NCBI RefSeq assembly: GCF_018446385.1
Contig: NC_055997.1
Span: forward strand, 45,884,254-45,948,253
Reading direction: 5' to 3'
Origin: Zingiber officinale
Lineage: Eukaryota > Streptophyta > Magnoliopsida > Zingiberales > Zingiberaceae
Length of the DNA stretch: 64,000 bases
Each line of letters begins with the position of its first letter. Position 1 is the first letter of the stretch. The notes under the pieces are model-generated. The model was not told the origin of the DNA, did no database searches, and saw nothing but the letters and a program-made list of their open reading frames with translations. Position numbers and translations under genes: made by a program. This document shows positions 10,433 to 53,270 of the stretch, in pieces.

Positions 10433-10972
10433 TGTTAGGATCCTTTGTACGGCTAGAGAGGGGGGGTGTGAATAGCCGCCCCCAATCGATCGTTTCTTTC
10501 TACAATGTCGAGTTAGCGCAGCGGAAATAAAACAATAGAAGCGACAAAGAAAGAAATCAAACCTCAAACTCGATGGATGTAACGAGGTTCGGAGATGAAC
10601 TCCTACTCCTCGGCGTGTCCGTGAGGTGGACGAGCCCTATCAATCCGTCGGTGGATGAGTCCCCGGAGAACCGGCTAATAATATACTCCTTGTGGGTGGA
10701 GAAACCTCACCACAAAGTCTCTTGCAACAGCAAGATAAGTGTACAAGAAATACAGCAAGAAGCAAGAGCAATATGAATGTAAAAACAAACGCTAGCTTGC
10801 CTTCGACTGGTTTCCGTTGACGAAGCAGCAACTTCACGGAAGAGCGAGCAGCAGCAGCTGACCCAGTCGTAGAATGAAACTCACGCGAAGCTTCAGAGGA
10901 GCTCAACAAAGCTCAAGCACGCAGAGCAGAAGAGAGAAGAGTTATCGCGCGGCGACCGACCCTTTTATACTG

Positions 10973-10979
10973 CGAAGGC
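10973..10979 (-). promoter_or_regulatory. TATA box, element B 3' LTR
   Basis: TATAAAA on the minus strand, about 50 bp downstream of the GATCGGTC/GACCGATC palindrome cluster. The equivalent site in the 5' LTR is at 16268-16274. Confidence 0.65.
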
Positions 10980-11024
10980 GGCAAGAAACTACGAAGAAAT
11001 CTGGCGTTGCGGCGCGGCTGGTAC

Positions 11025-11360
11025 TGAATCGGTCGGGGACGATCGGGACCTATTCGATCGGTCCCGGACCGATCAGCTTTCTTCCGACGCCCACCTTCGC
11101 GGGTTACGATCGGTGCGTGGACCGATCGAGCCCGGATCGGTCCACGACCGATCCCAACCCTGCTTTCTCGGCGACATTGTCTCGATCGGTCCCCCGATCG
11201 GGACGTAACTTTGATCGATGTGGACGATCGGCTGCCTCTCTTTGCCTCTGTTACTGGCGATCGGTCACCGATCGATGGCAACGAAACTTGACCGATGTCG
11301 ATGGTCACCGGACCGATCGAGCAAACAAATATCCTGGATCGGTCGGTGACCGATCCAGTG
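11025..11360. repeat. GATCGGTC/GACCGATC palindrome cluster (B, 3' LTR)
   Basis: More than ten copies of GATCGGTC or its complement GACCGATC, often paired head to head a few bases apart (for example at 11030-11075 and 11105-11155). They lie just upstream of the TATA box in transcription direction. Confidence 0.85.
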
Positions 11361-11559
11361 GGTTTGGCCCAAACCAAGTCCCAAGACTTCAAACCAATAT
11401 CCGGTCAACCTTGACCTATTGGTACTTCATCCCTAGCATCGGTCACTCCTTGACCTGCTAGAACTCCCCGCCAAGTGTCCGGTCAATCCCTTTGACCTAC
11501 TTGGACTTTCCTCAACACGGATGTCCGATCATCCATCCATCTGGATTTTCCTGCACGGC

Positions 11560-12060
11560 TTCACTTACGGGACTTTCACCGCTTCACTCACCGAGATTTC
11601 CACCGCCTAACATCCCGTTAGGACTTTCCCCTTGGCTTCACTCACGGGACTTTCACAGCTTCACTCACCAGGACTTTCCCTTTCACCTAGCTTCACTCAC
11701 TAGGATTTTCACTGGCACTCACCGTGATTTCCACCTAGCTTCACTCACTAGGGTTTTCACCTGGCTTCACTCACCAGGACTTTCTCCAACTGCCTGGCTT
11801 CACTCACCAGGACTTTCCGACTGCCTGGCTTCACTCACCAGGACTTTCTCCCGTGCCAAACTCCCTGTTTGGACTTTCCCCGTGCCAAGTCTCCATACTT
11901 GGACTTTCCGCGTGCCAAGCTACCTGCTTGGACTTTTCCCCGTGCCAAGTCTCCGTACTTGGACTTTTCCAGTGCCAAGTCTCCATACTTGGACTTTTCG
12001 CGTGCCAAGCTCCCTGCTTGGACTTTTCCGTTTGCCAAGTCTCCATACTTGGACTTTTCA
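11560..12060. repeat. Short tandem repeats in B 3' LTR (U3)
   Basis: Two arrays lie next to each other: units around GCTTCACTCAC(C)AGGACTTT (about 11570-11850) and units around GTGCCAAGTCTCCATACTTGG (about 11850-12060, roughly 30-bp period). The overlapping open frames on both strands across 11490-12100 come from this repetition and are not genes. Confidence 0.85.
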
Positions 12061-12293
12061 GGTCAACCAGGTCAACCTTGACCTAGGGTTGCACCAATAA
12101 TCTCCCAACCATCTATTCTTGTCTCACATCAAGAATACAACTCTTCCACGAGTGTCAAACATCAACATGCAACTCAACTAGGTCAATCTTGACCTAAGGT
12201 TGCATCAACAATCTTCCCAAGTCAAACATCAAAATACAACTCGAGTCAAGTCAACTCGAGTCGGGTCAACCTTGACCTAAGGTTGCACCAACA

Positions 12294-12625
12294 ATCTCCC
12301 CCTTTTTGATGTTTGACAAAATCATAATCAAGTTAGGTTAACCCGATAACCTAACTTAGGTTTTCCAACCATCTTCCAATGTCCAATGTTCTTTCCTTGA
12401 ACATTCTCTGGATTTTCCCTTAGGTTAACCCGATAACCTAACTTGGGTTCTCCAATAATTCTCCCCCTTTTTGACACACATCAAAAGGTATTCCAATGTT
12501 CTTCCTCGAACATTCCTTGACATTCTTTCCCTAGCTTAGGTTAAACCGATAACCTAACTTGGGTTCTCTAATAATTCTCCAATGAACACTCTCCCCTTTT
12601 TGACACACATCAAAAAGAAAAAGGA
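12294..12625 (-). promoter_or_regulatory. Polypurine tract of B, repeated three times
   Basis: The true tract (minus strand AAAAAGGGGGAGAT) is at 12294-12307, next to the 3' LTR. Near-copies occur at about 12461-12475 and 12590-12602, each with a neighbouring TTGACACACATCAAAA or similar block. The sequence AGGTTAACCCGATAACCTAA is repeated at about 12334, 12423 and 12538. Confidence 0.65.
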
Positions 12626-12817
12626 GAGTATCAAGGTCAAGAGTTTCTTCCTAATGAAAGTCCCATACCTTTCATTGAAACTCTTATTTTCCCTTTGATA
12701 CTAAGCTCAACAATCCACTTAATGATAATCCCATATCACTAATCCTCAAGGAGTAAAAACTCAAAAGCCAACTCCCCTTGACCATTGCACCAACAATGTC
12801 TTGGAGAGTTTCAAACC

Positions 12818-12823
12818 TTTATA
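12818..12823 (-). promoter_or_regulatory. Internal TATA-like box of element B
   Basis: TATAAA on the minus strand, about 65 bp downstream of the internal palindrome cluster at 12885-12985. No ORF of useful length follows before the 3' LTR at 12293. It mirrors the ORF2 promoters of D and E, but its gene is missing. Confidence 0.4.
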
Positions 12824-12884
12824 AATCTAAAACCAATCGTACGAAATTTCAGACATGCGAATTTCAAAGACATTACGCTTATCG

Positions 12885-12985
12885 AGACCTCCTGGATCGG
12901 TCACGGACCGATCCACTCTGGATCGGTCCGGTGACCGATCCAGCCCTCTGGATCGGTCCATCCGACCGATCCAGCCTCTGCTGGA
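12885..12985. repeat. Internal GATCGGTC/GACCGATC cluster of element B
   Basis: Three paired motifs (GGATCGGTC...GACCGATCC) within 100 bp, lying inside the element between gag and the 3' LTR. It is the same motif as in the LTR but outside any LTR duplication. Confidence 0.85.
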
Positions 12986-12989
12986 TCTT

Positions 12990-14190
12990 TCCGAAATTGA
13001 AACCCTAATAAATTCGAAAATTCGAAAAATTGTGAAATTTTGAGAATACATTCCTCATAACATACATTATCATGGAAAAATAGTTTTCTATGAAAATAGT
13101 TTCCATTTTCAAATCTTGATACAAAATTTGAAAACTTTGAAATAGTTCAAAGTTAAGTCATCTTTGTATCATCTTGCTCAATGAAGAATGCTATCACTAG
13201 GAAAGCTTCATCAAGGTTTTCAAATCAATTTTAAAATGCTTTTAAAACCATTTGAATTTAGGACCATAATCTTAGGGCTAAATGTACATGACTTGTACAC
13301 AAGCTTTCCCTATGATCCCTATTTTCTTGAATTAGGCTCATCTAGGTACAAAACCTATGCACCTTGATCCTAACTCATGATCCTAATATCTCACACACAT
13401 CTAAAGTGTATCAAACACATCCAAGTCAATTTTGATGTGAGATATGGGTTAAGGTCAACTTAGGCTAAGTTCTCATGCATTTTCTAAACACCAATTTGAT
13501 CTCAATATCAAATTATATGTTTGTCCTTAAATCAATTCAATTGATTATTAATGCAAGAGATGATGACATGGCATAAAATGGTATCATAAATGAAAACATG
13601 TGCCAATGTCATGATGTCATGGCATAAAGTTTGAAACTAAACTAACACATGACATATTATTACCTAAGCATTATCATGGCATTTCAAATGATCATAAATT
13701 AAATATGATGTCATGACATGGCATATGGCAAACAACCATGGTAAGTTAACACAAATAAAATACCTAGATTACCTATCTAAGTATCCTTAATCACTTAGCT
13801 AACTTAAATTCTAATCCTAGATTGCCCAAAGTGCTCCAAGAAAATGTCAAAACCCAAATTGACATTTCTTGATCTCTTGTTTGATTTATACCATTTAAAA
13901 TTCTACAAGAGTAGCACTTCTAAGTTAAGGCCCGGATTGCCTTGATTACCTAAGAGAATATCAAAATCCCAATTTGATATTTCTCTAGGTTTTTCCAAAT
14001 TGTGTCACATTAAAGTAAGATTAATATATTCTCACTTTGGCACACTTTACTCTTCCAAGGAGTGAATGATAAAGATTATTCCATTTCATTTTCAAAGGTT
14101 TCCAAAAACCTTGAAAATGCTCCTTGAGTGTCAATTTCCTCAAAGTTGGGTTAACTACCCTTCTTATTGGAGTTGACACTCTCTAACCCA
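12990..14190. other. AT-rich non-coding spacer of element B
   Basis: No reading frame or pol motif was found on either strand. The stretch is AT-rich, with many short CATG/ATGACATGGCAT-like variants around 13560-13740. It occupies the place where pol would stand in an autonomous element. Confidence 0.6.
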
Positions 14191-14191
14191 T

Positions 14192-15664
14192 TTATGGGGT
14201 AGAGAAGATGCTCCTAGGAACCCAATACCTATTTGAGCTCATTGGGTTCACTAAATATTCACTAGGGATAACTTCCCTAGCAACCCTCCTAATGACCCTC
14301 TTAGGCTTTGAAGCCTTGGTCATTTGGGTCTCATCAAGGTCAACTATAGGGGTGACTCCCCTTGTAACCTTGGTAATGGTCTTCCTAGCCCTAGGTTTTG
14401 TTCCATAATCGAATGGAACATTATGATAGGTGGGCTTGACCATTTGGGACTTAGGTTTGTAACCCAAACCTTTCTTGTCCTTGAACATTTGACCCTTAGG
14501 CCCTAGAGTTGACTTCTCTAAATTTTTAAGGGCCTTTTCTAGGGTATCAAGCCTTGACCTCAAGACTTGATTCTCCGTTTCTAATACCTCAATTTTTGAT
14601 TTATCACTCTTTCTTGAGGTATTCCTAGGCATATGTCTCGTCTTCTTGGGATTTCTACCTAGGTTTTCCTTAACTTTAGAAGCGTTAATCCTAGGGTTGG
14701 TGTTTCTAGTGTTATCCTTACCTAGACTAACATGCTTGGCACCTAAGCACATATATCGATTCCTAAGATTATCATGCTTATCATTCTTGACAATTGCAAT
14801 AAAACTACTAGCATGTGTTCTATTTGAATTGCAAGAATGAGACTTAAATGTTACCTTAGGGTTTGCCTTAGCTCCCCCTATCAATGTGCCCGGTCTCTTG
14901 CCCTTGTGAGGTTGCCTCCCCCTTGGACATTGACTCCGATAGTGTCCCCGTTGCTTGCATTGAAAGCACACGATGTGCTCCTTGCCCTTGCGTTTCGGGA
15001 CTCCGGCTTCCTTGACCTTTGGCGCCGGTGGAGTCTTTCTTACCCTCTTTGGACACTTACTCTTGTAATGTCCATGTTCCCTACACTCAAAGCACATAAT
15101 ATGTAATTTGATTGAACTTAAATTGCTTGAGTTACCTAGGGTTGAGGGTGGATGCGAGCTCTCTTCTTCATCCCTCCCGGAGGTAGAAGCTTCTTCTTCT
15201 TGCTTCGAACTTGAAGAAGAACTCTCCTCCTCTTCTTCCTTGGATGTTGAGTAGCCCTCAACTCCCAATTCGCTTCTTCCATGATGTGAGCTACTTGACT
15301 CACTAGGCTCCTCTTCATGGCTTGAAGTGGAGCTCTCCTCATGGAGTTTGTCCAAGTTGTTCCACAACTCCTTGGCATTGTTGTACCTATCTATCTTGCA
15401 CAAAACATTATTAGGTAAAGCAAATTCAATAATTTTTGTTACCTCGTCATTGATTTCGGATTGTCGGATTTGCTCTTTCGTCCACTCCTTCTTCTTGATA
15501 GGTTTTCCTTCCTCATCCATCGGAGGGGAAAACCCTTCTTGTACACAAAACCAATTTAACATATTAGTTCTAAGAAAATACATCATCCTTACCTTCCAAT
15601 ATGTGAAGTTGTCGTGAGACTCGTAGAAGGGTTGAATGGTGATGTCTTCTCCATAGAGATCCAT
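14192..15664 (-). CDS. Element B Gag (UBN2-type copia gag with two zinc knuckles)
   Basis: A single intact frame of 490 residues. I chose the ATG at 15664 because the open frame upstream of it runs into the tRNA primer site. The N-terminal 100 residues contain F-T-Y-W-K-V-R-M and K-E-L-W-N-N-L, the copia gag (UBN2/DUF4219-like) capsid signature. A Ser/Glu-rich acidic stretch follows, then two CCHC knuckles (C-F-E-C..G-H..C and C-F-Q-C..G-H..C). After a basic region comes a short coiled coil (V-L-E-T-E-N-Q-V-L-R-S-R-L) and a tail ending N-R-Y-W-V-P-R. Expected role: forming particles and packaging B RNA. An intact gag without pol suggests selection for packaging while enzymes come from another element. 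Confidence 0.85.
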   Translation of the reverse strand: MDLYGEDITIQPFYESHDNFTYWKVRMMYFLRTNMLNWFCVQEGFSPPMDEEGKPIKKKEWTKEQIRQSEINDEVTKIIEFALPNNVLCKIDRYNNAKELWNNLDKLHEESSTSSHEEEPSESSSSHHGRSELGVEGYSTSKEEEEESSSSSSKQEEEASTSGRDEEESSHPPSTLGNSSNLSSIKLHIMCFECREHGHYKSKCPKRVRKTPPAPKVKEAGVPKRKGKEHIVCFQCKQRGHYRSQCPRGRQPHKGKRPGTLIGGAKANPKVTFKSHSCNSNRTHASSFIAIVKNDKHDNLRNRYMCLGAKHVSLGKDNTRNTNPRINASKVKENLGRNPKKTRHMPRNTSRKSDKSKIEVLETENQVLRSRLDTLEKALKNLEKSTLGPKGQMFKDKKGLGYKPKSQMVKPTYHNVPFDYGTKPRARKTITKVTRGVTPIVDLDETQMTKASKPKRVIRRVAREVIPSEYLVNPMSSNRYWVPRSIFSTP

Positions 15665-15711
15665 CTCTAGCCCGTGCTCCCCCGGGTGTTGATCCGTCGA
15701 AGAGCGGCCTC

Positions 15712-15723
15712 GCTCTGATACCA
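15712..15723 (-). promoter_or_regulatory. Primer binding site of element B (tRNA-iMet type)
   Basis: TGGTATCAGAGC on the minus strand, two bases from the 5' LTR end. It is complementary to the 3' end of plant initiator tRNA-Met and sets the element's orientation. Confidence 0.9.
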
Positions 15724-16267
15724 CTTGTTAGGATCCTTTGTACGGCTAGAGAGGGGGGGTGTGAATAGCCGCCCCCAATCGATCGTTTCTTTCTACAATG
15801 TCGAGTTAGCGCAGCGGAAATAAAACAATAGAAGCGACAAAGAAAGAAATCAAACCTCAAACTCGATGGATGTAACGAGGTTCGGAGATGAACTCCTACT
15901 CCTCGGCGTGTCCGTGAGGTGGACGAGCCCTATCAATCCGTCGGTGGATGAGTCCCCGGAGAACCGGCTAATAATATACTCCTTGTGGGTGGAGAAACCT
16001 CACCACAAAGTCTCTTGCAACAGCAAGATAAGTGTACAAGAAATACAGCAAGAAGCAAGAGCAATATGAATGTAAAAACAAACGCTAGCTTGCCTTCGAC
16101 TGGTTTCCGTTGACGAAGCAGCAACTTCACGGAAGAGCGAGCAGCAGCAGCTGACCCAGTCGTAGAATGAAACTCACGCGAAGCTTCGGAGGAGCTCAAC
16201 AAAGCTCAAGCACAGCAGCACTTAGAACAGGAAGAAGGAAGAAGAGTTATCGCAGCCGTAGCCCTCC

Positions 16268-16274
16268 TTTTATA
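16268..16274 (-). promoter_or_regulatory. TATA box of element B 5' LTR
   Basis: TATAAAA (context GGTATAAAAGGAGGG) on the minus strand, about 60 bp downstream of the palindrome cluster. It fits a plant core promoter, with the transcript starting some 30 bp further down. Confidence 0.75.
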
Positions 16275-16334
16275 CCTGCGAAGAAAGCGAAGAAACTACA
16301 GAAGAAATCTGGCCGTTGCGGCGCGCGGCTGGTA

Positions 16335-16655
16335 CTGAATCGGTCGGGGACCGATCGGACCTATTCGATCGGTCCCGGACCGATCGCTTTCTTCCTGCCC
16401 ACCTTCATGCGGGTTACGATCGGTGCGTGGACCGATCGAACCCGGATCGGTCCACGACCGATCCCAACCCTGCTTTCTCGGCGACATTGTCTCGATCGGT
16501 CCCGCCGATCGGGACATCGATCGTGGACCGATCGGCTGCCTCTCTTTGCCTCTGTTGCTGGCGATCGGTCACCGATCGATCAGCAAATTCAGCACGCCCG
16601 ATCGGTCACCGGACCGATCGGGACACCTCTGGATCGGTGCGGTGACCGATCCGAG
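16335..16655. repeat. GATCGGTC/GACCGATC palindrome cluster (B, 5' LTR)
   Basis: Dense copies of GATCGGTC and GACCGATC, mostly in opposed pairs with spacers of a few bases, directly upstream of the TATA box. Spacer and copy number differ from the 3' LTR, so individual repeats turn over while the motif is kept. Confidence 0.85.
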
Positions 16656-17570
16656 CTTGTTTGGCCCAAACCAAGTCCCAAGACTTCCAAACCAATATCC
16701 GGTCAACCTTGACCTATTGGTACTTCATCCCTAGCATCTGGTCACTCCCTTGACTGCTAGAACTTCCCGCCAAGTGTCCGGTCAATCCCTTTGACCTACT
16801 TGGACTTTCCTCAACACCGGATGTCCGATCATCCATCCATCTGGATTTTCCTGCAGCTTCACTTACGGGACTTTCACCGCTTCACTCACGATTTCCACAC
16901 CGCCTAACATCCCGTTAGGACTTTCCCAGCTTCACTCACGGGACTTTCACCGCTTCACTCACGGGACTTTCCCTTTCACCTAGCTTCACTCACTAGGATT
17001 TTCACGCTTCACTCCCATTTGCCCAGCTTCACTCACTAGGTCTTTCCCCCTGGCTTCACTCACGGGACTTTCTCCAACCGCTGGCTTCACTCACGGGACT
17101 TTCCATTGCCTGGCTTCACTCACGGGACTTTCCCGTGCCAAACTCCTGCTTGGACTTTCCCGTGCCAAGTCTCCATACTTGGACTTTCCGCGTGCCACCC
17201 TTGGACTTTTCCCGTGCCAAGTCTCCGTACTTGGACTTTTCCAGTGCCAAGTCTCCATACTTGGACTTTTCGCGTGCCAAGCTCCCTGCTTGGACTTTTC
17301 CGTTTGCCAAGTCTCCATACTTGGACTTTTCAGGTCAACCAGGTCAACCTTGACCTAGGGTTGCACCAATAATCTCCCAACCATCTATTCTTGTCTCACA
17401 TCAAGAATACAACTCTTCCACGAGTGTCAAACATCAACATGCAACTCAACTAGGTCAATCTTGACCTAAGGTTGCATCAACAATCTTCCCAAGTCAAACA
17501 TCAAAATACAACTCGAGTCAAGTCAACTCGAGTCGGGTCAACCTTGACCTAAGGTTGCACCAACAATATA

Positions 17571-23232: not shown

Positions 23233-23239
23233 TTTTATA
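23233..23239 (-). promoter_or_regulatory. TATA box of element C LTR
   Basis: TATAAAA in the context GAGCTATAAAAAGGCC on the minus strand, about 40 bp downstream of the GC-rich half-palindrome cluster. Confidence 0.6.
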
Positions 23240-39911: not shown

Positions 39912-39923
39912 TGGTATCAGAGC
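39912..39923 (+). promoter_or_regulatory. Primer binding site of element E (tRNA-iMet type)
   Basis: TGGTATCAGAGC, two bases after the LTR end at 39909. Confidence 0.92.
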
Positions 39924-41619: not shown

Positions 41620-43235
41620 GATATAAAAGTAAATATAAATCTTACTTATCCTTAATAGACAAACAAAGTAGTAACACAGCCCAAGCATGGGTCCCCAAGT
41701 CCAAATTGATCAATCAAGTTGGACTTGGTCAATACTGGGTCCCGAAGGATCAAATACATTATCTCGATAGACCATATCGAGGCCGTGATCCAGGGGGAGC
41801 AAAGAGAAAAACGATAATTCGAAATTAAATTATAAATTAAAAAATTAAATTCAAAATTCAAAATTCAAAAATTAAATTCAAAATTCAAAATTAGATTATA
41901 AATTCAAAAATGAAACTCAAAATTCGAAATTAAATTATAAATTCAAAAATGAAACTCAAAATTCAAAATTAAATTATAAATTCAAAAATTAAATTCAAAA
42001 TTCAAAATTAGATTATAAATTCAAAAATGAAACTCAAAATTCGAAATTCAAATTCAAAAATTCAAAAATTAAATTCAAAAATTAAATGAAATTCAAAATT
42101 CGAAATTAAATTAAAAATCTAAAATCAAATTCAAAATTCGAAATTAAATTAAAATTTAAAATTCGAAATTAAATTAAAAATCAAAAATTAAAATTCGAAA
42201 TTCAAAATTAAACAAATCAAAATTATAAATGAAAAATAGAAGGAGGGTCCAAACTAGCTGGCACCTCCAACTGAACTACCCGACAGGGTAACTGAACCTA
42301 ATTTACCCGGAATGGGTAAAACAAGAATGGATTACCTGGCAGGGTATTTAAGGTTAGATTAAAAAGAGATAAGTTTAACTTGAACCACAGTACTGGTGAA
42401 GTTTTTGGATGATAGTACGTTAGGGAAACTTGGGCATCGCATGTCTAGGAAGATATGGCTTCGACCTGGTGCATTTGGCCAAGTGGAACTGACCGAAGCT
42501 ACCCTTAAATGGATCCTAACTAGTTAGACCAAGTTTTAGTATTAAGTTCAATGGGTAGGACTATTTGGAAGACCTCGAAGGCATGGTTACTTTAATAAGC
42601 TCCTTGTGACTCACCATAGCCCAGAAGTTTATCCAAAGAATGCTTACTTGTTGAATCCAAAGCTAAACCTGAATCTAACACAAGACTAAACAAAACCCTT
42701 AAATTGAACCTCAATTCATCTCACAACAATTATAGGATTCCCTGATTGAAAATTTAGATCGGGTGAGATGACTAAGTAATTAAAATCAAACTGATAATTA
42801 ATTCATAACTCAAAATTCTTTTTTTATTTGAAAAATCAATTTCAAATGAATTTCAAAATTAATTTAAAAAACTTTTCAAAATCAATTTCAAAATTATTTA
42901 AACTTTTCAAAAATCAATTTCAAAATTATCTAAAAATCTTTTCAAAAATCTTTTCAAAAATAAATTTCAAAATTATTTAAATCTTTTTCAAAATTAAGCT
43001 CAAAATTACTTAAAAATCTTTTCAAAATGAATTTCAAAATTTATCAAAATGAATTTCAAAATTTTTCAAAATGAATTTCAAAATTATTTTTTCCAAATTA
43101 ATTCAAACTCAATTTCAAAATTTGAATTAATTCTCAATTAAAGATGGTTAAGAATCAATTTTATTTAAGCATCTTTAATCATACTTACATTAAGATTAAA
43201 TTAAAAATTAAAGCTTAATAATAATACCACGGTCA
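41620..43235 (+). other. AT-rich spacer of E with AAATTC-repeat arrays
   Basis: It occupies the place of pol. From about 41800 to 42235 and 42820 to 43110 it is a low-complexity array of AATTCAAAATT(C/A)-like units, Ns of variable length. Between them (42240-42820) is unique-looking non-coding DNA. No frame longer than a few dozen codons and no pol motif. Confidence 0.7.
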
Positions 43236-43348
43236 AAAACCGGGGGCAGGCGCCCCCGGTATTCAGACCCCGGGCGCCCGCAGCGATCCCGGGCGCCCCG
43301 CCTCACACGACCCCGAGCGCCCGGAACACGTCCGGGTGCCCGGAACCC
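43236..43348. repeat. Internal GGGCGCCCGG palindrome cluster of E
   Basis: About seven copies or variants (GGGGGCAGGCGCCCCC, CCCGGGCGCCCG, CCCGGGCGCCCC, GAGCGCCCGG, CCGGGTGCCCGG). Same motif as in the LTR, but outside it and immediately before a TATA box. Confidence 0.9.
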
Positions 43349-43350
43349 CT

Positions 43351-43358
43351 TATATATA
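43351..43358 (+). promoter_or_regulatory. Internal TATA box, ORF2 promoter of E
   Basis: TATATATA (CCCCTTATATATAGGGGG) a few bases after the internal palindrome cluster and 148 bp before the ORF2 ATG. Arrangement and spacing match the LTR promoter. Confidence 0.7.
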
Positions 43359-43505
43359 GGGGGCAGCAGGCGCCCCCTACCCTTGCACTCAAATCTTCCT
43401 CCTTAGCTTCCTAGCTTATTTGCGAAGATTTTGAAAATTAAAATTTTTCGCGGTTGATCCGGAGTCGCAACTCAACCGAGGTCGTCAGTTCTAAAATTTA
43501 TTACA

Positions 43506-44823
43506 ATGGCTCCTCGGTAAAATTTTTATCCCCTCCTAAACTTTCTTTCTTATAATCTTTTCTTAGTGTAATGTTAGTTTGATATTTAGGAAGCGTACTA
43601 AATCTGGTGCTGGGCCCTCTACCCCTAGCATTGACCCTAGGTTTCCCACCGAAGAACTTAGGATTAAGTTTATGTCAACAAATTACATGGCCATTAGAAC
43701 CAAATGTATAGACAGATCGTTCTTTTTAGGCTCCTGTATTCCAGTCTCCGAGACTATAAACCACTATAGGCTGCGAAACCTAGTTGAGTGCGCCAGCGCA
43801 GTAAACATAAGTCTATGTGCCGAATTTTACAACAACCTAGTGAAAGTAGACGACTACACCTATACCACTAGGGCAGCTGGCACGGATATCACATTATCTC
43901 CCACCACCATTCGTGAGTTTCTAGGGTTACGAGAGTCACCATGCACCTTTTTATGCTACCCTCCTAGGGAGCTACCTTTTGGAGATCCCTACTCACATAT
44001 TACCCTTGATACGATCTATTCGTCCTTCTTTGAGGACCAGCGTGATCCCACTGAGACCCAGTTTAGGTCACTTAACCTTAGAATTCAGGACTACGCCCTT
44101 TATAGGGTTCTAGTACTTTGTATTCTACCGCTTACCACTCACGACATTGCGGTGATGCGTCCATTTCACTCTTTCCTGCTCTATGCCCTGTGTCAGAGGT
44201 TAGATATAGACATCAGTCTTCACATCTTTTCCACTATCATTTATGCAGCTGGATTCGTGACCAGTAGACGAGTACATATGCCTTATTGTCATATTCTGAC
44301 AGCTTACATGGCCTCATTACACATTGACGTCACCACAGGTGACATCCGCTACATGACCGAGTTTGACATCATAGGAGCTAGGAACTTTTCCCTAGCGAAT
44401 ATCCATATAGACGATGAGGGTACCATGTCCTGGCGTAGGGGGGCACAGCACCAGCAGGCGGAGGAGGCAGAGCATGATGAGTTCATGTTGGCACTATTTC
44501 CTGAGGAGGCTGCTCCTGCCCCACCACCTCCTCGAGCACCACACCCAGCTCCCCGCACTCTCGCTGATCGAGTCTCCGGACTAGAGAGGACTATGTCGAG
44601 TCTCCGGCACAAGAACTCCAAGTTTCATCAGTCCATGCGACGAGAAGTCTCTGATCTTCGACGAGAGGTTCGACAGGAGGTCTCCGACTTACGACGAGAC
44701 GTACGACAGGAGCTCTCCGACTTGCGCCGAGATCTACGAGAGGATGACCGAGCTCGTCACACTGAGATCCTGACACTACTCCGGTCGCTGGGTTCCGGAC
44801 CACCTCCCTCATCATCTCAGTAG
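43506..44823 (+). CDS. Element E ORF2: putative plant transposon protein, spliced
   Basis: Exons 43506-43516 and 43590-44823 encode 414 residues. The start is M-A-P-R-K-R-T-K; splicing a 73-nt intron (GTAAAATTT ... GATATTTAG) joins the ATG to the long frame without a shift. Without it the long frame has no ATG near its 5' end. Residues about 60-250 contain F-Y-N-N-L, then D-I-T-L-S-P-T-T-I-R-E-F-L-G-L, the signature (by memory) of the plant 'putative plant transposon protein' domain seen in Athila-type second ORFs. The middle is Pro/Ala-rich. The C-terminus has an 11-residue repeat (S-D-L-R-R-E-V-R-Q-E-V, three times) that should form a coiled coil. No signal peptide or membrane helix is obvious. 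Function unknown. Confidence 0.85.
43517..43589 (+). other. Predicted intron of E ORF2
   Basis: 5' site CTCCTCG|GTAAAA, 3' site TTGATATTTAG|GAAGCG, 73 nt, AT-rich; the usual size of small plant introns. Removing it restores an 11-nt first coding exon in frame. Confidence 0.7.
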
Positions 44824-46093
44824 TTCCTACTGTTGCTCTATTATGACTCTAGTACAGCTTGTAGCAGCTCTATTATGACTCTTGTATCTATATCGACTTT
44901 TTAGTCTAATGGACAGTTTCACTTCAGGCTTGATTAACTATACCTTAACCTAATAAATTAGTCCTTTAGTCACATTCTTTTATAAATTCTAGGAAAAACA
45001 GTTTTTCAAAACTCCAATTTTAATAAACTTTCAAAAGTTGGGTTTAGTTTAGGATTTCCCCTAGACATCATGTTCCCCTAGAATTAAGCCAAAGCATCTC
45101 ACAACACCTAGGTTTACCTTGATTGTGTTTGTAAAACATAGAACGGTGTGAGATGCATAGGGTACAGCCTGGACTCAAGAATGCTTATTTCTGTGCATCA
45201 ATATGAGTCTGGGCATTAAATACATAATTAACAGTAATCAAATCAAGTCTTCCAGCCTTAGTCAAATCTAACTGGATCAATTGACTTGACTTGACTAACC
45301 AGGTGAACACTGTTGCCCTCTAGGCAATCAGCAAGCAGCTAAATGGTTAGACAGTTGGTGGAGGCAATATTAAAGTTTAAGCATGTTTGTACTTAAGGGC
45401 TCTGATACCTGATCAAAACCAAATCTTGACTCATGCTTGGACTTTAGAACACTGAAACCTTACTAAAACTAAATTAAGGTTATCTCCTCTCCTTTGCCTT
45501 AAGTATTCCTGAAATTTATCTCAAAAACATTCCTTAAACAGTTTTATCAAAATTTTCTCCAAACTTAACTTTCAAATATCTTCTTCTTTGAAATTTTTTT
45601 TTAAAACCCTTTTGAAAATTCATTAAGTTGTTAAAGCTTTAAAAATTATTTTTCCTTGCAAATTTATTTGAAAATCTCTGAAGTTGAAACCTGTATTTTG
45701 AAAAAAAAAATTTCTATGAAAATTTTGGAAACCAATATTTTTCTATAGACTCAAAAAAGAGCTCATGTTTTTCTATGTCTATTCAAACAAAATAAATTCT
45801 AAGGTGTTCTCCTTCACTTTCCTTGCCTAAAATAAAATGTTTTTTAATTCTATCTTGAAAATTAAGTTTTTCAAAACTAGCTCATTTTTGATATATGGCA
45901 AAGGGGCAGAGTAGAGAAATTCAAAGTAGAGAAATTCAAAAGAAAAAGGAAACCTTGTATTAAGGGGGAGCTTCACAAAAAGTTTAAGTGTTAGCTTAAG
46001 TTAGACGTTCATTTGAATTTAGATACTTAAGTTTGCATAATATACTTATGCGTTTGTTTTTTCACTTAACTTTGAATTTGGGTTGCCATAATC
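44824..46093 (+). other. 3' region of element E
   Basis: Non-coding, with T- and A-rich tracts (45540-45740). No gene seen. It ends at the polypurine tract. Confidence 0.6.
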
Positions 46094-46107
46094 AAAAAGG
46101 GGGAGAT
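46094..46107 (+). promoter_or_regulatory. Polypurine tract of element E
   Basis: AAAAAGGGGGAGAT directly upstream of the 3' LTR. Identical to the tract of element B read on its own strand. Confidence 0.9.
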
Positions 46108-47286
46108 TGTTGGTGCGGGAAGCATCTGACGATCGAACCTGAGTTTTGATAATGACAAAGGATTCAAAGTTAAGGGTTGTTGTAATCTAACATGGTTGAA
46201 TGAGTATTTCAGGAAAGTCCTAGCTGCGGTTAGGCAAAGGGAAAAACCCTAGGGGGTGGTAACCCTAGGTCATAGGGGGTGGTAACCCTATGCGGAAAGT
46301 CTTGGCAGGTCGATGGCTTCAGGCAAAAGTCCTAGGGGGTGGTAAACCTAGGTGGAAAGTCCTGGTATCGTGAACCAGGTGAAAGTCTGGACTAGCCGGG
46401 AAGCGGATGTCCAGCAGAAAGTCCGGAAGCATCGAGTGCTGAGCAAAAGTCCAGTCGATCTGGAGGATCGACTGGCAGAGAGGAGTAGGTGAGGACGCGC
46501 TCCCCGTAGAGGGAACAGTAGGCGTCGGGTCGACCTAGGATTTCTGATTGGAAATCCGAAGTCAGACTCGGACAGTCCGAAGACTGTCAATTCTTCTTTA
46601 TGATGTTTTGTCTTATTCTAACACTGTCTTGCAGGGGATTTTGCTCGGACTAACCTTTGTTTGCAGGTGAGGAACCTGCTGGAAAAAGGCTGTCCGGGCG
46701 CCAGGGATGGATCCGAGCGCCCGGGATGGATCCGGGCGCCCGGAGGTCCGAGCGCCCGGAACAGGTCCGGGCGCCCGGGACCAAAGTTTATCCCCTGCCC
46801 GAAGTTGACACGTGTAGCATCCTGGTTGGCTGGCCACGTCACACTCCAGGAGCCCGGAAGGGATCCAGGCGCCCGGAACATCATATAAAAGAAGGGTCAA
46901 GGTGCAGCTTCAAAATAGACAAGAATCTAAGTAATCTCCCTGCGACAAGCTGCTAACGACTCGATCCAGAAAGTGCTGCAACGACACCCCGACAACCCGG
47001 AGCTTCAATTTAGTCTTTTGTTGTCGGTATAATCTGTTTACTGCTTTAAATTGTAGTTAATCTGTAATAGTTTTATCGTGCTTATAGTTGTTGCCCACGG
47101 AAAGCGATCAAGGATCGCGGGCCTTCGAGTAGGAGTCGCCTTAGGCTCCGAACGAAGTAAATCTTCCTGTCTCTCTGTGTTTGTTATTTCTTTATTCCGC
47201 TGCGCTTTTACTCGTTTGTTTTACGAATCGAAAGAAATAGCCACGAACGCTATTCACCCCCCCTCTAGCGTGGTCTCGATCCAACA
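46108..47286 (+). repeat. 3' LTR of element E (1179 bp)
   Basis: Nearly identical to the 5' LTR. Differences include small indels (for example around 46380 and 46478) and one extra palindrome copy. Followed by CCAAT. Confidence 0.95.
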
Positions 47287-48282
47287 CCAATTAGCCGGGT
47301 TACGAATTGTAGTTCGTTCAGGAAAAGGAAGGGGTAAAGGAGAACCACTCCTCATAGGAAACGTGAAACCATTCTCATCCCGAACGATCATTTTCATAGT
47401 AAGGCATGTATCAATGTCAATCATGTCATTACCATGAATTATTTCCAACCCATCAACATCAAGATTTAAATTATAAGCTATTCGGGTAATCAAACCACCA
47501 AAAACAATCGATCCCGATGATGCCCTAGCCGATCTCAATAAGGTTTGAACAAAATGAAAACCAGAGTCAAATTCAACCTTATAAAGCATAGCCCATAAAG
47601 CATAAAGCTCTATCTTTTTAACCACCCCATCACTCTCTCCCCTACCAAAAATAGTTTTACTCATGACTCTATGTAGATACCTAAAGATGGGGTTCTGCAT
47701 ATGGGAGGCCTTAGCTCTTGAAGGTTCATAAGGTTGAGCTAACCCAGTTATTGCATTCCAAAAATGATTCCAATTAAACCTTGGATCAAACCTACGAGGG
47801 CTACCGGTGGTTATTCCAAAACAGGAATTAAAGTCACTAAATGCCCATAGAAATTCTTGATTCATTAATCTAAAAGAGATTTTTCCAGAATAATCATCTT
47901 CATTAGTAAAATGGACATCCAATGAACTTAAAAATTCCAAAACAAGACGAGGATATGTAGGCAAATGTGTGTACATAATATCACTCCAATCCAAAAATCC
48001 AATCATCAAATCTACATCTTCCCTAATTCCAAGCATATCAAGAACAGTTTGGTCCATATATCTAGTACACACTATCTTTCTATTGACAAGAATTGCAAAT
48101 CTAGTTACTTGATCATCATTTCTAAATACAATATTGAATTCATTGTCATTACCTTCGTTGCGTGAAGTCCTTTTGCCTTTGCCCTTCACTGGTTGTTTTC
48201 CTTTGTCCCTTGATGGCTCCTTCTCTTTGTCTCCACTAGATCCACCACCCCCTTTGCGAAGTCTCTTCAAAATATTGGACAT
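47287..48282 (-). CDS. Element D ORF2, N-terminal part (Athila-type second ORF)
   Basis: Starts at the ATG at 48282 and runs 332 codons to the E insertion, continuing at 38728. A basic, Gly/Lys/Ser-rich N-terminus (about 45 residues) may serve nuclear targeting or nucleic-acid binding. The body has S-F-R-L-M-N-Q-E-F-L-W-A-F and F-N-W-N-H-F-W, then N-P-I-F-R-Y-L-H-R-V and I-F-G-R-G-E-S-D-G, the pattern of Athila-type 'putative plant transposon protein' ORFs. Later comes G-G-L-I-T-R-I-A. The full gene would encode about 502 residues. It was open until E inserted. No envelope-like transmembrane segment was noticed. Confidence 0.85.
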
Positions 48283-48461
48283 CTTGACAAGTTTAGATAG
48301 GGGAAGAATTATCTAGAGTTGTGGAACTCAAAGAACAAAACTTCAAAGAACAAAAGATCTTAGGTTAAGAGAACAAAAAGTCCAAGTCTTAGGGAGGAGG
48401 AGAATCGGATCTAAGAGATCTTGAGAGATTAGAGAGGGGTTTTTAAGAAATTGGGGGAGAA

Positions 48462-48489: not shown

Positions 48490-48835
48490 CGGAACACGGC
48501 CAAGATCTGGCCGTGTGAGGTAAGAAGAAGACTTTAATAGTTCTCCTACACGGGCCGTGTAGATCTACACGGCCTCCCCATCTTTCCTCTCGGGATTCTT
48601 TGCACGGGCCGTGTATATCCACACGGCCTCCCCCTCTTCCTTCTCTGGATTCCTCGCACGGCCGTGTCTGGGACACGGCTTCTCCATCCTTCCTCTCGGG
48701 CGTGTTTTTGACACGGCCTAGATCCTTTTCTCCTCGGAAGATGCTATACGGCCGTGTCTGGATGACACGGCCTAAGCACTTCCCTTCTCTGCAACTTTTC
48801 CCTAGCCGTGTATAGCACACGGCCGAGCTCCGTTT
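48490..48835. repeat. Internal ACACGGCCGTGT cluster of D
   Basis: About ten copies of ACACGG(C/G)CCGTGT or halves (CACACGGCC, GGCCGTGT) between the gag-PR stop and ORF2. It is the same motif as in the D LTRs and lies outside them. Confidence 0.9.
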
Positions 48836-48975: not shown

Positions 48976-51369
48976 TCATTCATTTCTTTTCCTCGCCCTT
49001 GGAGGACAGATATACTTTTCGTTTTTGTTGGGGGGTCTTCTCCCAACATCTTCCACCACATTATCTCCTTCATTTGGTGGCCTTCCATGAGGATGGAAAT
49101 TCCATTCCTCAAGTTTATAAATGCTTGACCTGCTACAAGCATTTAAAAGAGACGAGACATGGTTAGAGATTTTAGATAAATCATATTCCAACTTTTCCTT
49201 ACCAATTACCAAAGAAAGCTTATGATTTTTGACATCAATTATAGCTCCAGCTGTAGCAAGGAAAGGTCTTCCTAATATGATAGGAATCCTAGGGTCCTCT
49301 TCCATGTCCAACACGACAAAATCTGTGGGAATAACATTCCCATCCACCTCTACTGGCACATCTTCTAAAATACCCAAAGGGTACCTGCAGGAATGATCGG
49401 CAAGTTGAAGTGCCATAGTAGTAAGTTTAATGTTTTTGAAACCTAATTTATTACAAATTGAATAAGGAATGAGGCTAACACTCGCCCCCAAATCACAGAA
49501 AGCTTTTTCAAAAAATTCTTTTCCTATGTTGCAAGGGATATAAAAGCTCCCTGGGTCCTTCAGTTTTGGAGAAGTGTTCCTCTCAAAAATAGCACTACAT
49601 TCCTCACTGAGCGCAATGGTCTCGACCTCTCCTCTTCTTCTCTTGTTTGACATGAGATCCTTCAGGAATTTGGCAAATCTAGGCATTTGCAGAATAGCAT
49701 CGATAAGAGGTACCTCTACACAAATTTTCTTAACTTTTTCTAGAAACTTGCCAAATTCTTCATCTTTCTTGAGCATTGTAAGTCTTTGAGGAAAAGGGAC
49801 AACTTTGCTCTGATGGTTCAGTGGAAGAGTTTCTTCAACCTCAATGGTACTCTCCTCATTAGCTTGAATCTGATTTGATATAGGAGGAGAGAGCTCTTCT
49901 TCTTTTTGTATCCCTTTTGAAACAGTCACTTGGGAGTCTCCCAAGGTCCGTCCGCTCCTAAGCTCAATCCTATTGCAATGCTCCATAGGATTCACATCAG
50001 GTTTTCCTGGAAGTTGCCCTGGTGCTCTGGATGATGAGGAAGCGAGTTGGGCAATTTGACTATCCTGGATCATTTGATGCTTTTCAGAATTATCCATTCT
50101 TTGGATGAGCTTTGCTATATCTTGCTTCATTTCATTCTGACTTGAGATAATTTCTTCAAGCATCTTTTCAACATTTGACTTTGGTAAGCCTTGAGAAGAT
50201 AGATGTTGAAAATTTTGTTGCCCAGCTTGAAAATTTGGTCTTGCCCCCATAGATGGTCCTTGATCTTGATTGTTTCTGTAAGAAAGATTTGGATGACTCT
50301 TCCATCCAGGGTTATAAGTATTTGAGTATGGGTTGTTCTGCCTTTGATTGTAACTCATGATTGCATCACATTGTTCAAGTTGATTGATTTGTGCAGTGAT
50401 AGCTCCCAATGGACATGAGTCATTTGAATGCTCTGAACTCCCACATACTTCACAAGATGTACTAATAGCATTGACCATATTAGCACTAGTCCCCATATTC
50501 TCAAATTTCTTTTTAAGAGCGTCCAATTTTGCAGACAAAAGAGTGACTGCATCTACCTCAAACTTCCCTGATGCTTTAATTGTTGGGTTTACAGAGGAAT
50601 AGCCACAACTTCTTTCATTTGCCCATTGATGATGATTTTGTGCTACACTTTCAATGATTTCTTCGGCTTCATCTAAGCTTTTGTTCATAAGTGCCCCTCC
50701 AACAGCTGAATCAAGGGACACTTTGGTATGATAATTGATACCATTATAAAAAGTATGCAACACTAACCATCTTTCCAACCCATGATGTGGGCATTGTCTG
50801 AGCATACTATTATATCTATCCCATGCTTCAAAAAGAGATTCTGAGTCAGTTTGCTTGAAGCTTGCAATTAAATTCCTCATATGAGCTGTTTTGCTTGGTG
50901 GAAAGAACTTATCAAGAAACTGTTGCTCACACTGCTCCCAAGTGGTGATGCTATTAGGGGCCAAAGAATTCAGCCATTGCTTTGCCCTATCTCTTAGAGA
51001 AAACCCAAATAACAATAATCTAACTGCATCTGAAGGAACTCCATTCATTTTCATGGTACCACATATTTCATAAAAGACCTCTAAGTGTTGATTAGGGTCC
51101 TCATGAGGTCCTCCACCGAATTGGTTCTGCTGCACCATAGATATGATTGCAGGTTTGATCTCAAAGTTATTAGCTTCCACCGAAGGTCTTGAAATACTAG
51201 ATCGAAAACCTCTCGCATAGGGTGCTGCATAATCCTTAAGTGGTCTATTCGCCATGTTCAAATGTTCCTGTTCTTCAATTTGCCTTTGCAGAATTCTTCT
51301 TTTATGGAAAGTTCTATCAATCTCAGGGTCAAAAGGAAAGAATTCCCCTGCAAAGTTAGATCTTCGCAT
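48976..51369 (-). CDS. Element D Gag-protease (Athila-like gypsy)
   Basis: An intact frame of 797 residues from the ATG at 51369 (M-R-R-S-N-F-A-G-E-F). The capsid domain of the Retrotrans_gag type spans about residues 80-250 (W-L-N-S-L, then F-L-D-K-F-F-P and a Y-N-x-M-L-R-Q-C-P-H-H motif). A short knuckle C-E-V-C-x-x-x-x-H-x-x-x-x-C follows near residue 310 and a Gln-rich middle after that. The protease near residue 640 has D-L-G-A-S-V-S-L-I-P, the Athila-type form of the active site with Leu in the Ser position, and I-P-I-I-L-G-R-P-F-L. The frame stops shortly after protease, with no RT. The neighbouring DNA is the internal promoter of ORF2. Confidence 0.9.
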   Translation of the reverse strand: MRRSNFAGEFFPFDPEIDRTFHKRRILQRQIEEQEHLNMANRPLKDYAAPYARGFRSSISRPSVEANNFEIKPAIISMVQQNQFGGGPHEDPNQHLEVFYEICGTMKMNGVPSDAVRLLLFGFSLRDRAKQWLNSLAPNSITTWEQCEQQFLDKFFPPSKTAHMRNLIASFKQTDSESLFEAWDRYNSMLRQCPHHGLERWLVLHTFYNGINYHTKVSLDSAVGGALMNKSLDEAEEIIESVAQNHHQWANERSCGYSSVNPTIKASGKFEVDAVTLLSAKLDALKKKFENMGTSANMVNAISTSCEVCGSSEHSNDSCPLGAITAQINQLEQCDAIMSYNQRQNNPYSNTYNPGWKSHPNLSYRNNQDQGPSMGARPNFQAGQQNFQHLSSQGLPKSNVEKMLEEIISSQNEMKQDIAKLIQRMDNSEKHQMIQDSQIAQLASSSSRAPGQLPGKPDVNPMEHCNRIELRSGRTLGDSQVTVSKGIQKEEELSPPISNQIQANEESTIEVEETLPLNHQSKVVPFPQRLTMLKKDEEFGKFLEKVKKICVEVPLIDAILQMPRFAKFLKDLMSNKRRRGEVETIALSEECSAIFERNTSPKLKDPGSFYIPCNIGKEFFEKAFCDLGASVSLIPYSICNKLGFKNIKLTTMALQLADHSCRYPLGILEDVPVEVDGNVIPTDFVVLDMEEDPRIPIILGRPFLATAGAIIDVKNHKLSLVIGKEKLEYDLSKISNHVSSLLNACSRSSIYKLEEWNFHPHGRPPNEGDNVVEDVGRRPPNKNEKYICPPRARKRNE

Positions 51370-51601
51370 ACACAAGAATAAGATAGCAGATGGCAATTCG
51401 ACACAAAAAGAAAAGAAGAAAAAATAGATGGATCAAAAATGCAGAATTGAATTTGTACAAAAAGAATTAACAAGAAGTGAAAGTTATACAAGAAAGTAAA
51501 AACAGAAATCTACTGATTAGTTACAACTATACAATATGAAAGGAAAATAAATGTTATGTTTAGTCTAACTCAATTGATAATTCCTAATGTTATAGCGCAG
51601 T

Positions 51602-51621
51602 CCCCGGCAACGGCGCCAAAA
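51602..51621 (-). promoter_or_regulatory. Primer binding site of D
   Basis: TTTTTGGCGCCGTTGCCG on the minus strand, three bases from the LTR. It is the site type used by Athila/Tat-lineage gypsy elements; I believe it matches tRNA-Asp, which should be checked. Confidence 0.75.
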
Positions 51622-52674
51622 ACTTGTTCGCTCTCCGCAAGTGTACGGAAATGTCGCAAGTAATATAAAAGATTATCGTATCCACAGGGACTGGAATAAG
51701 CACTAGAAATGTCTCAATGCGAATTAGCTAAGCAACTATCCAATCGTTTCAAAAGCAAAGTAAAGGTAAACAAATCTAATCTTAAAGATCAACAAACAAG
51801 AGTTTAGTGTTTTGGATTATGCTAAAGGGAGATTCTAGGAGTTTCAGTTTCTTTGTAAGATTTCTTGAATGTAAATGGTTCACCAATTCTTATCCCTCAA
51901 TTGTCAAACATGTAGAAAGTTGTCGGTTCTCTCTTGCAATAGACAATCGGCTAAGGACTGAGAAATGTATCTAAATAGGATTAATTAGACATGAACCTAC
52001 GTTGTCCTTACACAGAAGCGCACCTATTACTATGCCTTCCTCGGATATCAACATAGAAGCCCACAACTTATTAATCTATCAAGATACAAGAAACTAATCA
52101 CAAGATCCATCCTACTCTCTTGAATATTCTCATTTCCTCTTCAAGATTATCTCCCAAACGTCCTTACACGGGCTTGCACCTGTCACGTGGATCCCTCGGA
52201 TGATCGAGTGAGAGTTTATCTTTACAAAGTCCACAAGAAATCCAAACAATCAATCAAGAATGAGAATTAAGCACAAATCATTATTAATCATTCAAGATCT
52301 AATTGATACAAGCAAGACAATGTCATTGAAACAAGAAAATGGCAAATCCATAAGAGAATACATCAATCCATCATACAAATACTCCCTTAATCCTAGAATA
52401 CAAGATCTACTCCATGAATCGAGGAAGAAAACCCGAAGAAATAGAGATTACAAGCATTTCTTAAATCCCCAATCCAAGAAATCAAGAAGAGGGGGAAAGA
52501 AAAAACTTATCTACGAAGAAGCCTCGTCTTCGGATCCAAACCTCGCTCCGGAGTCGAAATCGTCGAGATCTCCCTTAGAATCGCCCAAAAATCCTCCCAA
52601 GAATGGGCGGAAACCACCAAATCTTGCTTTCTCCCAAAGGGGGAGAGATCCCCTTTCAATTCATGAAGAAGGGT

Positions 52675-52682
52675 TTAAATAG
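52675..52682 (-). promoter_or_regulatory. TATA-like box of D 5' LTR
   Basis: TATTTAAA (CCTCTATTTAAACCC) on the minus strand, about 20 bp downstream of the palindrome cluster. Confidence 0.65.
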
Positions 52683-52697
52683 AGGAGGGAATCGGGC

Positions 52698-53050
52698 GCC
52701 ACACGGCCCCGTGACACGGCCGTGTGAGATTCACACGGCCATGTCCAGTTCCCTCTCTGCCAAAGCTGCATGGTCGTGTGTCTCCACACGGCCAGAACCC
52801 TTCTGCTCTCTGGAAATGCTACACGGCCGTGTAGTGCACACGGCCACAGCCTGTTTGGTCTCTGGAAATCTCACACGGCCGTGTAGATCCACACGGCCAT
52901 GTAAGGCTTCTGCTCTGGTAGGCTTCAAATCTTGACACGGCCGTGCGAGGTTCACACGGCCATGTCATCTTCCTCTTCTGTTGGTGCCAAACTCCACACG
53001 GCCCGAGCTCCATACCAGTGCAGGGCCGTGTGAGGTACACGGCCCGGTGC
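52698..53050. repeat. ACACGGCCGTGT palindrome cluster (D, 5' LTR)
   Basis: About a dozen motifs including four perfect ACACGGCCGTGT, typically a full palindrome followed some 12 bp later by a CACACGGCC half. Just upstream of the TATA-like box. Confidence 0.92.
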
Positions 53051-53270
53051 TTTCTCCCTTTGCTTCCTCCAATGCATGCCCAAAGATGTAGATTCTTCAC
53101 CAAATCGACTCCTGTGTACAGAAAATGCACAAAAAGCAGATCTCCGAACCAAAAGAGTAAATATGCTAAAAGGAAAGCTGGAAGTATAAAAATGCATAGA
53201 TCAAGCATGATCAAAATATGTAAATGTGCGTAAAAACATGCATAAAAGAGTATATAATCTACGCACATCA

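Follow-up and report, generated by a model that had tools for sequence, protein, structure and literature searches.

Palindrome arrays in four nested retrotransposons

We analyzed a window of 64,000 nucleotides from the Zingiber officinale genome (C12:45884254-45948253, in an assembly of 3.09 Gb in 211 contigs). It consists of nested long terminal repeat (LTR) elements, here called B, C, D, and E, together with copia elements of type A that carry pol. The U3 regions of B, C, D, and E hold clusters of short palindromic boxes, which are followed by a TATA-like box in the direction of transcription. The first-pass annotation of this DNA had described clusters and TATA boxes in this arrangement, and it was found in all four elements, but the boxes are not limited to U3, since they recur inside B, D, and E.

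Element B (10433-17567, minus strand) has LTRs at 10433-12295 and 15726-17567 and the target site duplication ATATA. The U3 of its 5′ LTR contains an array of GATCGGTC-N3..5-GACCGATC boxes (16335-16660, minus) with a TATA box at 16268-16274. The same array is present in the U3 of the 3′ LTR (11056-11356, minus), and an internal array of three boxes lies downstream of gag (12895-12971, minus). This box is the clearest spaced inverted repeat of the set: among the 100 sites listed out of 195,310, with spacers of 0 to 10 nucleotides allowed, the spacer was of 4 nucleotides in 78, of 5 in 12, and of 3 in 10. The element encodes a gag-type open reading frame (ORF) with a CCHC motif (14192-15727). 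Neither pol, including the reverse transcriptase (RT), nor an env-like ORF was found in B, though the inner array is kept. Its primer-binding site (PBS) junction is CA/AGTGG/TATCAGAGC, with TATCAGAGC at 15712 (minus), and its polypurine tract (PPT), AGGGGGAG, is followed by AT/TG at the 3′ LTR (12292, minus). Two PPT octamers are present in the linker (12296 and 12461). Further sets of inverted repeats occur at the start of the LTR (17165-17536 and 11885-12264), namely, four CCAAGT-N6-ACTTGG and three GGTCAA-N2-TTGACC, and a TAGGTT-N8-AACCTA set extends for about 200 bp from 12334, in the linker near the PPT.

In element E (38732-47286, plus strand; LTRs 38732-39909 and 46106-47286), a direct scan allowing at most two mismatches identified six TCCGGGCGCCCGGA-type boxes in the U3 of the 5′ LTR (39335-39500, plus), followed by TATAAAAG at 39507, and seven in that of the 3′ LTR (46693-46877, plus), with a TATA box 6 bp further on. 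Four more boxes, with one to three mismatches, form an internal array (43269-43344, plus). The gap between this inner array and the TATATATAG at 43351 is 6 bp, equal to that between the LTR array and TATAAAAG, and the inner array and TATATATAG together make up a putative internal promoter of an env-like gene. Directly downstream of them lies the env-like ORF (43567-44823, plus; 418 amino acids from stop to stop), which matches PF20167 at 4.9e-10 with 40 bits, less than the 45 that Pfam sets as its cut-off. A Zingiber officinale protein matches this accessory ORF with 51% identity over 30%. The ORF is likely exon 2 of the gene, and a candidate mini-exon, with an ATG at 43506 and then a GTAA donor, lies upstream of it. 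It ends in a long, coiled-coil-like C-terminal helix, the only confident part of a fold model that was otherwise too poor (predicted local distance difference test [pLDDT] of 40.7, from 3 sequences). E also has a copia gag ORF (40027-41619), and pol, including RT, was not found in it. Its PBS junction is CA/ATTGG/TATCAGAGC, with TATCAGAGC at 39915 (plus), its PPT is AGGGGGAG followed by AT/TG at 46098 (plus), and its linker contains two or three PPT octamers (41792, 45963, and 46098). AT-rich short-period repeats occupy positions 41800-42240, between gag and the inner array. The junctions published for Sireviruses are a AGGGGGAG-AT/TG PPT and a CA/A(T or G)TGG/TATCAGAGC PBS, and their linkers contain several PPT octamers, four on average (PMC2829016). 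Since B and E carry these junctions, they are Sirevirus-type elements.

Element D (25225-53270, minus strand) has the target site duplication GGCAG, one LTR at 51625-53270, and the other in two parts (25225-26364 and 36633-37141). The U3 of the 5′ LTR holds a ACACGGCCGTGT-type array (52698-53050, minus), with TATTTAAA at approximately 52675-52682, and an internal array lies between the gag-protease (gag-PR) ORF and the ATHILA ORF (48494-48822, minus). The half-sites CACGG/CCGTG occur 18 times in 573 bp of U3 and 16 times in 663 bp of the inner region, with none in the 2,457-bp gag-PR ORF and a single one in 1,046 bp of R-U5. D belongs to the Athila type by its ATHILA ORF and its Ty3-type gag with protease. 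ATHILA ORF-1 (47254-48312, minus) matches PF03078 (6.9e-24) and, below the cut-off, PF20167 (2.7e-4), while the gag-PR ORF of 818 amino acids (48976-51432, minus) matches PF03732 (4e-21) and Asp_protease_2 (3.8e-5). RT and integrase were not found in D. The PBS adjoining position 51625 holds GGCGCCGTTGCCGGG (51603, minus), which we take to be typical of Athila. Other genomic copies of D carry the LTR array (L027 and L001) and the inner array (L027 and L004). The 55 gag-PR matches that were scored, of 23,346 first-look candidates, were 96 to 100% identical to that of D, with frames of 813 to 846 amino acids, and 13 of them had no internal stop. The sampled copies end before RT, and their frames are too short for a gag-pol. 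The D accessory protein was modeled with a pLDDT of 80.8, and its fold gave no match in the PDB at E ≤ 0.001 (253 at E ≤ 10) and none in BFVD (458 at E ≤ 10).

Element C has the weakest of the four clusters, a GGAGG-GCCTCC-type array in the LTR U3 (23275-23480, minus) with TATAAAAAG at approximately 23233-23239. The GGAGG arm is present in one of its four inverted repeats, and GGAGGCGCCTCC is matched with at most two mismatches at two places only. The Sirevirus PPT-AT/TG junction was not seen in C, where the dinucleotide after the PPT octamer at 23973 is AA; the LTR borders were not found, and this octamer may not be the terminal PPT. C is probably a Sirevirus-type Ty1/copia element without pol, because the gag-like stretch beside D resembles the gag of E. 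An ORF with a Transposase_28 domain (PF04195) lies beside C (21879-22610); this domain has been reported for Retand elements (PMC6317226).

Array statistics and distance to the TATA box

We counted inverted repeats (arm of at least 6, arm GC of at least 0.5, and spacer of at most 8) and compared them with 100 dinucleotide shuffles. The two LTRs of B contained 8 (shuffle mean, 1.04; maximum, 4) and 6 (mean, 1.09; maximum, 4), that of C contained 4 (mean, 0.38; maximum, 3), and D contained 5 (mean, 0.77; maximum, 2) and, in the longer of the two parts of its other LTR, 3 (mean, 0.36; maximum, 3). The counts for E were not significant against the shuffles (1 against a mean of 0.60 and 2 against 0.72, both with a maximum of 2). 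Genome-wide, the palindromes were compared with the same patterns read backwards, which gave 195,310 versus 2 copies for B, 26,318 versus 1 for E, 19,923 versus 35 for D, and 8,940 versus 85 for C. The clusters are far beyond chance. We also scored 25 stretches, either LTRs or repeat pairs, for their best individual palindromic word, which was repeated 3 to 9 times in all nine of B, D, or L025/L026 type (L025 and L026 are described below), twice in E and in C, and 0 to 2 times in the 14 others, whether or not they carried pol. In three of the nine (B in the window, the stretch at position 181250 of a 200-kb block, and L025), the best word was not the named box. E and C are not set apart by this count, so the evidence for their arrays comes from the inverted-repeat count and the direct box scan.

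A TATA-like box followed the cluster in all nine stretches measured, at distances from 6 to 87 bp: 64 and 87 bp in B, 6 bp in both LTRs of E, 19 bp in D, 47 bp in C, and 23, 36, and 50 bp in L027, L001, and L025, respectively. This agrees with the first-pass annotation, as does the finding that the boxes change between families, each having its own palindrome. The layout is also shared by two superfamilies, Ty1/copia (B and E) and Ty3/gypsy (D), as had been claimed. Helical phasing of the box spacings was not established: R was 0.45 at 10.25 bp for B (70 spacings, non-independent through repeated 32-bp units) and 0.66 at 10.25 to 10.5 bp for D (15 spacings), and E showed none (9 spacings, the best period being near 9.5 bp).

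Arrays and the presence of pol

According to the first-pass annotation, the clusters are a feature of pol-less elements that arose by convergent selection or exchange; the reading weighed here is a mark of such elements, convergently selected for parasitism. The window itself agrees with this, as B, C, D, and E carry arrays, and A and F do not. No cluster was found in A, in F, or at 57.5 to 64 kb (presumed to be element H, likewise described as lacking one), but the same scans also missed E and C. The claim fails because pol and boxes occur together in two other loci. In the adjacent stretches L025 and L026 (C1:220000-233999), the former encodes a copia gag (3690-5342), an integrase, and RVT_2 (5.3e-79), followed by a B-box array (9218-9591), and the latter contains an env-like stretch in two frames that is 29% identical to the ORF of E (2.3e-36), four PPT octamers, of which the last is followed by AT/TG, and a 3′ LTR that carries the B box (2201-2625). 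The LTR-like stretch that precedes the L025 gag (1991-3603), about 70% identical to the LTR of B and with boxes at 2736-3042, may belong to another element, chimeric or neighboring. Since this LTR pair is unmatched, it is the linker array, together with the 3′ LTR, that links pol to the boxes here. In L034, an open frame of 653 amino acids with RNase H and integrase ends at 1959 and is followed by an array (2113-2280) and then by an ATHILA ORF. Pol-bearing elements of both lineages thus have boxes, the array observed in the Athila case being the one before the ATHILA ORF.

Conversely, the 200-kb block contains repeat pairs without a pol match, some of which also lack clusters (e.g., block positions 44001-46651), and boxes have been published in Sireviruses that were compared by their RT and RNase H (PMC2829016). 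A mark of pol-less parasitism is for these reasons an extremely unlikely explanation of the clusters. The correlation between arrays and pol in the window is better explained by lineage, with SIRE and Athila on one side and A and F on the other.

Arrays upstream of accessory genes

We sampled six pieces upstream of matches to the ATHILA family (L034 to L039) from 92 scored matches (4,833 first-look candidates). L035, with 95% identity in gag-PR, is a member of the D family, and L036 (56%) and L037 (61%) are relatives. In L038, tblastn alone indicated an integrase-like stretch, whose 90-amino-acid frame has no Pfam match. The largest number of half-sites in any 400 bp was 5, 16, 14, 8, 11, and 0 in L034 to L039, respectively. 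Spaced palindromes of the form CACG-N2..8-CGTG, a pattern chosen after the sequences had been inspected, numbered 5, 5, 3, 5, 2, and 0 in the same order, compared with 0 in 76, 1 in three, and 2 in one of 80 pieces of the block. The core of the Athila box varies by family (CACGGCCGTG, CACGCCCGTG, and CACGACCGTG), and TTTTTAAATAG stands before the last box of L034.

For PF20167, six upstream pieces were taken from 150 scored matches (7,315 first-look candidates). One palindromic word was repeated 6 or 7 times in four of them (L028, L029, L032, and L033); a word was repeated at least 6 times in 4 of 189 pieces of the window and block, B arrays among them. The box is CAGTCGACTG in L028, whose pol end resembles that of Sireviruses (80% identity to L025 over 40 residues), and TCGATC-N4-GATCGA in L029, L032, and L033, where the spacings of 31 to 32 and 53 to 55 bp seen in B also occur. 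About 15 bp past the L028 array lies TATATAAG. An ATG with a first exon of 3 to 8 codons and a GT donor, judged by eye and pattern, is found downstream of the array in seven of eight Sirevirus-type loci (not in L029). From this we infer that the accessory gene would be spliced and have its own promoter.

The accessory genes of the two lineages appear distantly related. A profile of E-type proteins (3 sequences) aligned collinearly with one of D-type proteins (9 sequences), over 212 columns (E = 6.6e-5; probability, 63.8%), and direct BLASTP of the E and D proteins gave no convincing match (E = 0.027). As the profile comparison alone backs homology, the evidence is moderate. Two further proteins, P0003 and P0009, and that of D match both Pfam families (PF20167 and PF03078). 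A C-terminal helix was recognized by eye in some Athila relatives, not in the ORF of D itself.

Possible function of the boxes

The regulatory role that had been proposed for the palindromes is plausible. We consider, with a probability of roughly 0.6, that the boxes are cis-regulatory sites at two promoters, that of the LTR and that of the accessory gene. Each array would be the upstream regulatory part of a promoter, and an element with an accessory gene would accordingly possess two co-regulated promoters. The trans-acting partner would be a host factor or a protein encoded by the element. Within a family, the need for every copy to suit a single such partner would make the box sequence drift in concert.

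Several observations weigh against this interpretation. Family-specific boxes would be odd if they were bound by a single host factor, and the covariation of partner arms in B, presented below, is not required by a simple protein half-site model. No clear array was found in one of the six ATHILA pieces (L039, located within gag-PR) or in two of the six PF20167 pieces (L030, with the best word present once, and L031, with it present twice). Block pieces reach a maximum of 5 half-sites (1 of 100 pieces of 1,700 bp and 1 of 80 of 2,400 bp), and L034, with the same number, does not stand out in this respect. A pattern search revealed no internal TATA box in L025, L030, L031, L032, and L033, and the inner arrays of D have one in the window copy and none in L027 and L004. 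Finally, no matched 5′ LTR was found for L025, since the stretch before its gag lacks the TATCAGAGC PBS and the LTR of L026 (from 1742) matches over about 200 bp with 74% identity.

The palindromes might instead act as hairpins of RNA, or of extruded DNA, formed from U3 and the linker, for example in RNA packaging or as a source of small RNAs for silencing, as has been argued for maize Sireviruses. In B, partner arms covary far above shuffled partners: the arm extension was 146, against a mean of 100.8 and a maximum of 133 in 5,000 within-cluster permutations (66 unique perfect-arm sites in 16 clusters), and 215, against a mean of 127.6 and a maximum of 165 in 2,000 permutations, for a looser set of sites. 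The covariation suggests either a hairpin constraint or correction by template switching. The narrow range of the B spacer (3 to 5 nucleotides in the 100 sites listed) fits a hairpin as well, as do the RNA fold z-scores, which are strongly negative for all four clusters (B, −9.55; D, −8.20; C, −6.35; E, −4.26), as expected of palindrome arrays. An excess of small RNAs over the palindrome regions of maize Sireviruses has also been described, citing Bousios et al. 2016 (PMC10760457). The boxes of D and E, however, are uninterrupted palindromes without partner-specific covariation, albeit in small samples (D, 8 versus 10.4 in 23 sites with one mismatch and 45 versus 46.0 for outward pairs in 29 sites; E, 1 versus 0.8 in 9 sites with two mismatches allowed), and a place beside the TATA box and beside the accessory gene suits DNA regulation. 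Hairpins as the explanation of the arrays seem somewhat unlikely to us; we favor regulatory DNA sites, to which hairpins would add a second role, or an alternative one, in B. The covariation of B and its repeated spacings of 31 to 32 and 53 to 55 bp would also result from template switching during reverse transcription, which perfects inverted repeats and duplicates units, in which case the arrays would be by-products devoid of function. This is very unlikely, given that the same two places are kept in several families of two superfamilies and that arrays are absent from the gag-PR ORF of D and nearly so from its R-U5, while the place at the TATA box is kept.

Regulation of the LTR and of the accessory gene by the same boxes, our preferred reading, might extend to a mobile module common to Sireviruses and Athila, made of a palindrome-box promoter and a PF20167/ATHILA-type gene. 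By analogy with known self-encoded regulators, its protein would bind the palindrome of its own family, at its own promoter and at the LTR, as an activator or anti-silencer, and B-like derivatives would keep the boxes in order to be switched on in trans. Putative co-evolution of box and protein would then account for the family-specific palindromes. The protein would combine a globular domain with, in some members, a long C-terminal helix, and would perhaps be dimeric. We regard such a module as unlikely.

Other features of the window

D is split by E and by a CACTA transposon (26364-36632; ends CACTACAACAAAATCGCT, 3-bp duplication AAA) that is inserted into its 3′ LTR and in turn contains a gypsy chromovirus with pol and a chromodomain (27312-32563). 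Two copies of D, in the window (flank at 53271-54126) and in L027 (8938-9714), both interrupt copia gag-like sequence, and the two sites differ by about 46 bp, which makes an insertion preference possible. We rejected the idea that D and the copia gag form one composite element: the flanks in the window and in L027 are 67% identical, indicating separate insertions of D into related elements. Two A-type copia elements, about 90 to 91% identical, are inverted tail to tail at 1-9478, and a tandem array of six copies of a unit of about 143 bp occupies 56441-57571. Outside the window, another box, TCGGTCGACCGA with a spacer of 0, is present six times within 236 bp of L021, from base 83 on (C1:60160083) and not far from a copia gag-like stretch; its sequence is near the published Vitis motif CGGTCGACCG.

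Comparison with known systems

The first-pass annotation knew of no description of this pattern, and for Sireviruses one was published in 2010. Bousios et al. described palindromic repeated motifs (RM boxes) in 13 Sireviruses, pol-bearing elements included. The motifs have a CGG-CCG core, except in Tnd-1, and are located upstream of the LTR TATA box and, in env-bearing elements, also upstream of env (PMC2829016). An RM-box element has at least 8 palindromic boxes, and the clusters are CpG islands (PMC2829016). B and E each have at least 8 boxes, in the LTR upstream of the TATA box, with extra boxes inside, and carry the Sirevirus junctions; their clusters are thus RM boxes. The likeness extends to boxes that are palindromic, family specific, of high copy number, and upstream of both the TATA box and an env-like gene, and the B box (CGGTC..GACCG) is close to the published motifs of Osr10, Osr8, and Barbara. 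The CpG observed/expected ratio is 1.43 in B, 0.91 in E, 0.71 in D, and 0.58 in C, with 0.62 for the window. The boxes of B, D, and E have the CGG-CCG core by sequence, unlike that of C (GGAGGCGCCTCC), and the present set also differs from the published one in comprising pol-less derivatives and an Athila-type Ty3/gypsy family. RM boxes were called Sirevirus specific from a comparison limited to Ty1/copia (PMC2829016), which left the Athila case open.

Elements of the TR-GAG type have LTRs and gag and lack pol. B resembles them, unlike E, with its env-like ORF, and D, with its protease and ATHILA ORF. The VANC proteins of VANDAL transposons are reportedly element-encoded, sequence-specific anti-silencers that act on the non-coding regions of their own element. 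They offer an analogy for a self-encoded regulator, yet VANDALs, for which VANC anti-silencing has been described (PMC5735166 and PMC10398659), are DNA transposons, and the protein is unrelated. The palindrome-rich LTR region with hairpin potential in maize Sireviruses is like the arrays described here, but D is Ty3/gypsy, and maize Ty3 elements are generally without an obvious structure peak (PMC10760457). The additional ORF of sunflower Athila, with similarity to PF20167/PF03078 and a predicted nuclear signal (PMC11728184), is an accessory ORF of the same protein family as that of D and, distantly, of E. SIRE accessory ORFs fall into 19 groups with little similarity (PMC6317226).

For Athila, no description of palindromes was found in the titles and abstract openings searched, a set that most subscription papers lie outside of, or in the passages considered of PMC11963269, PMC2774666, PMC2410132, PMC6317226, PMC11728184, and PMC10760457; the word "palindrome" is not used in the main text of PMC11728184. 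The arrays are a huge genomic feature, one palindrome having about 195,000 copies in the 3.09-Gb assembly. As a defined candidate DNA target, the boxes make the role of plant env-like genes testable, and the inner array with its TATA box is a defined candidate for the promoter that the 2010 authors sought and did not settle (PMC2829016). While the Sirevirus boxes are known, the Athila layout of D is what looks new: a feature called Sirevirus specific occupies the same two positions in a Ty3/gypsy lineage, and the accessory gene of that lineage appears to be a distant relative of the gene in Sireviruses.

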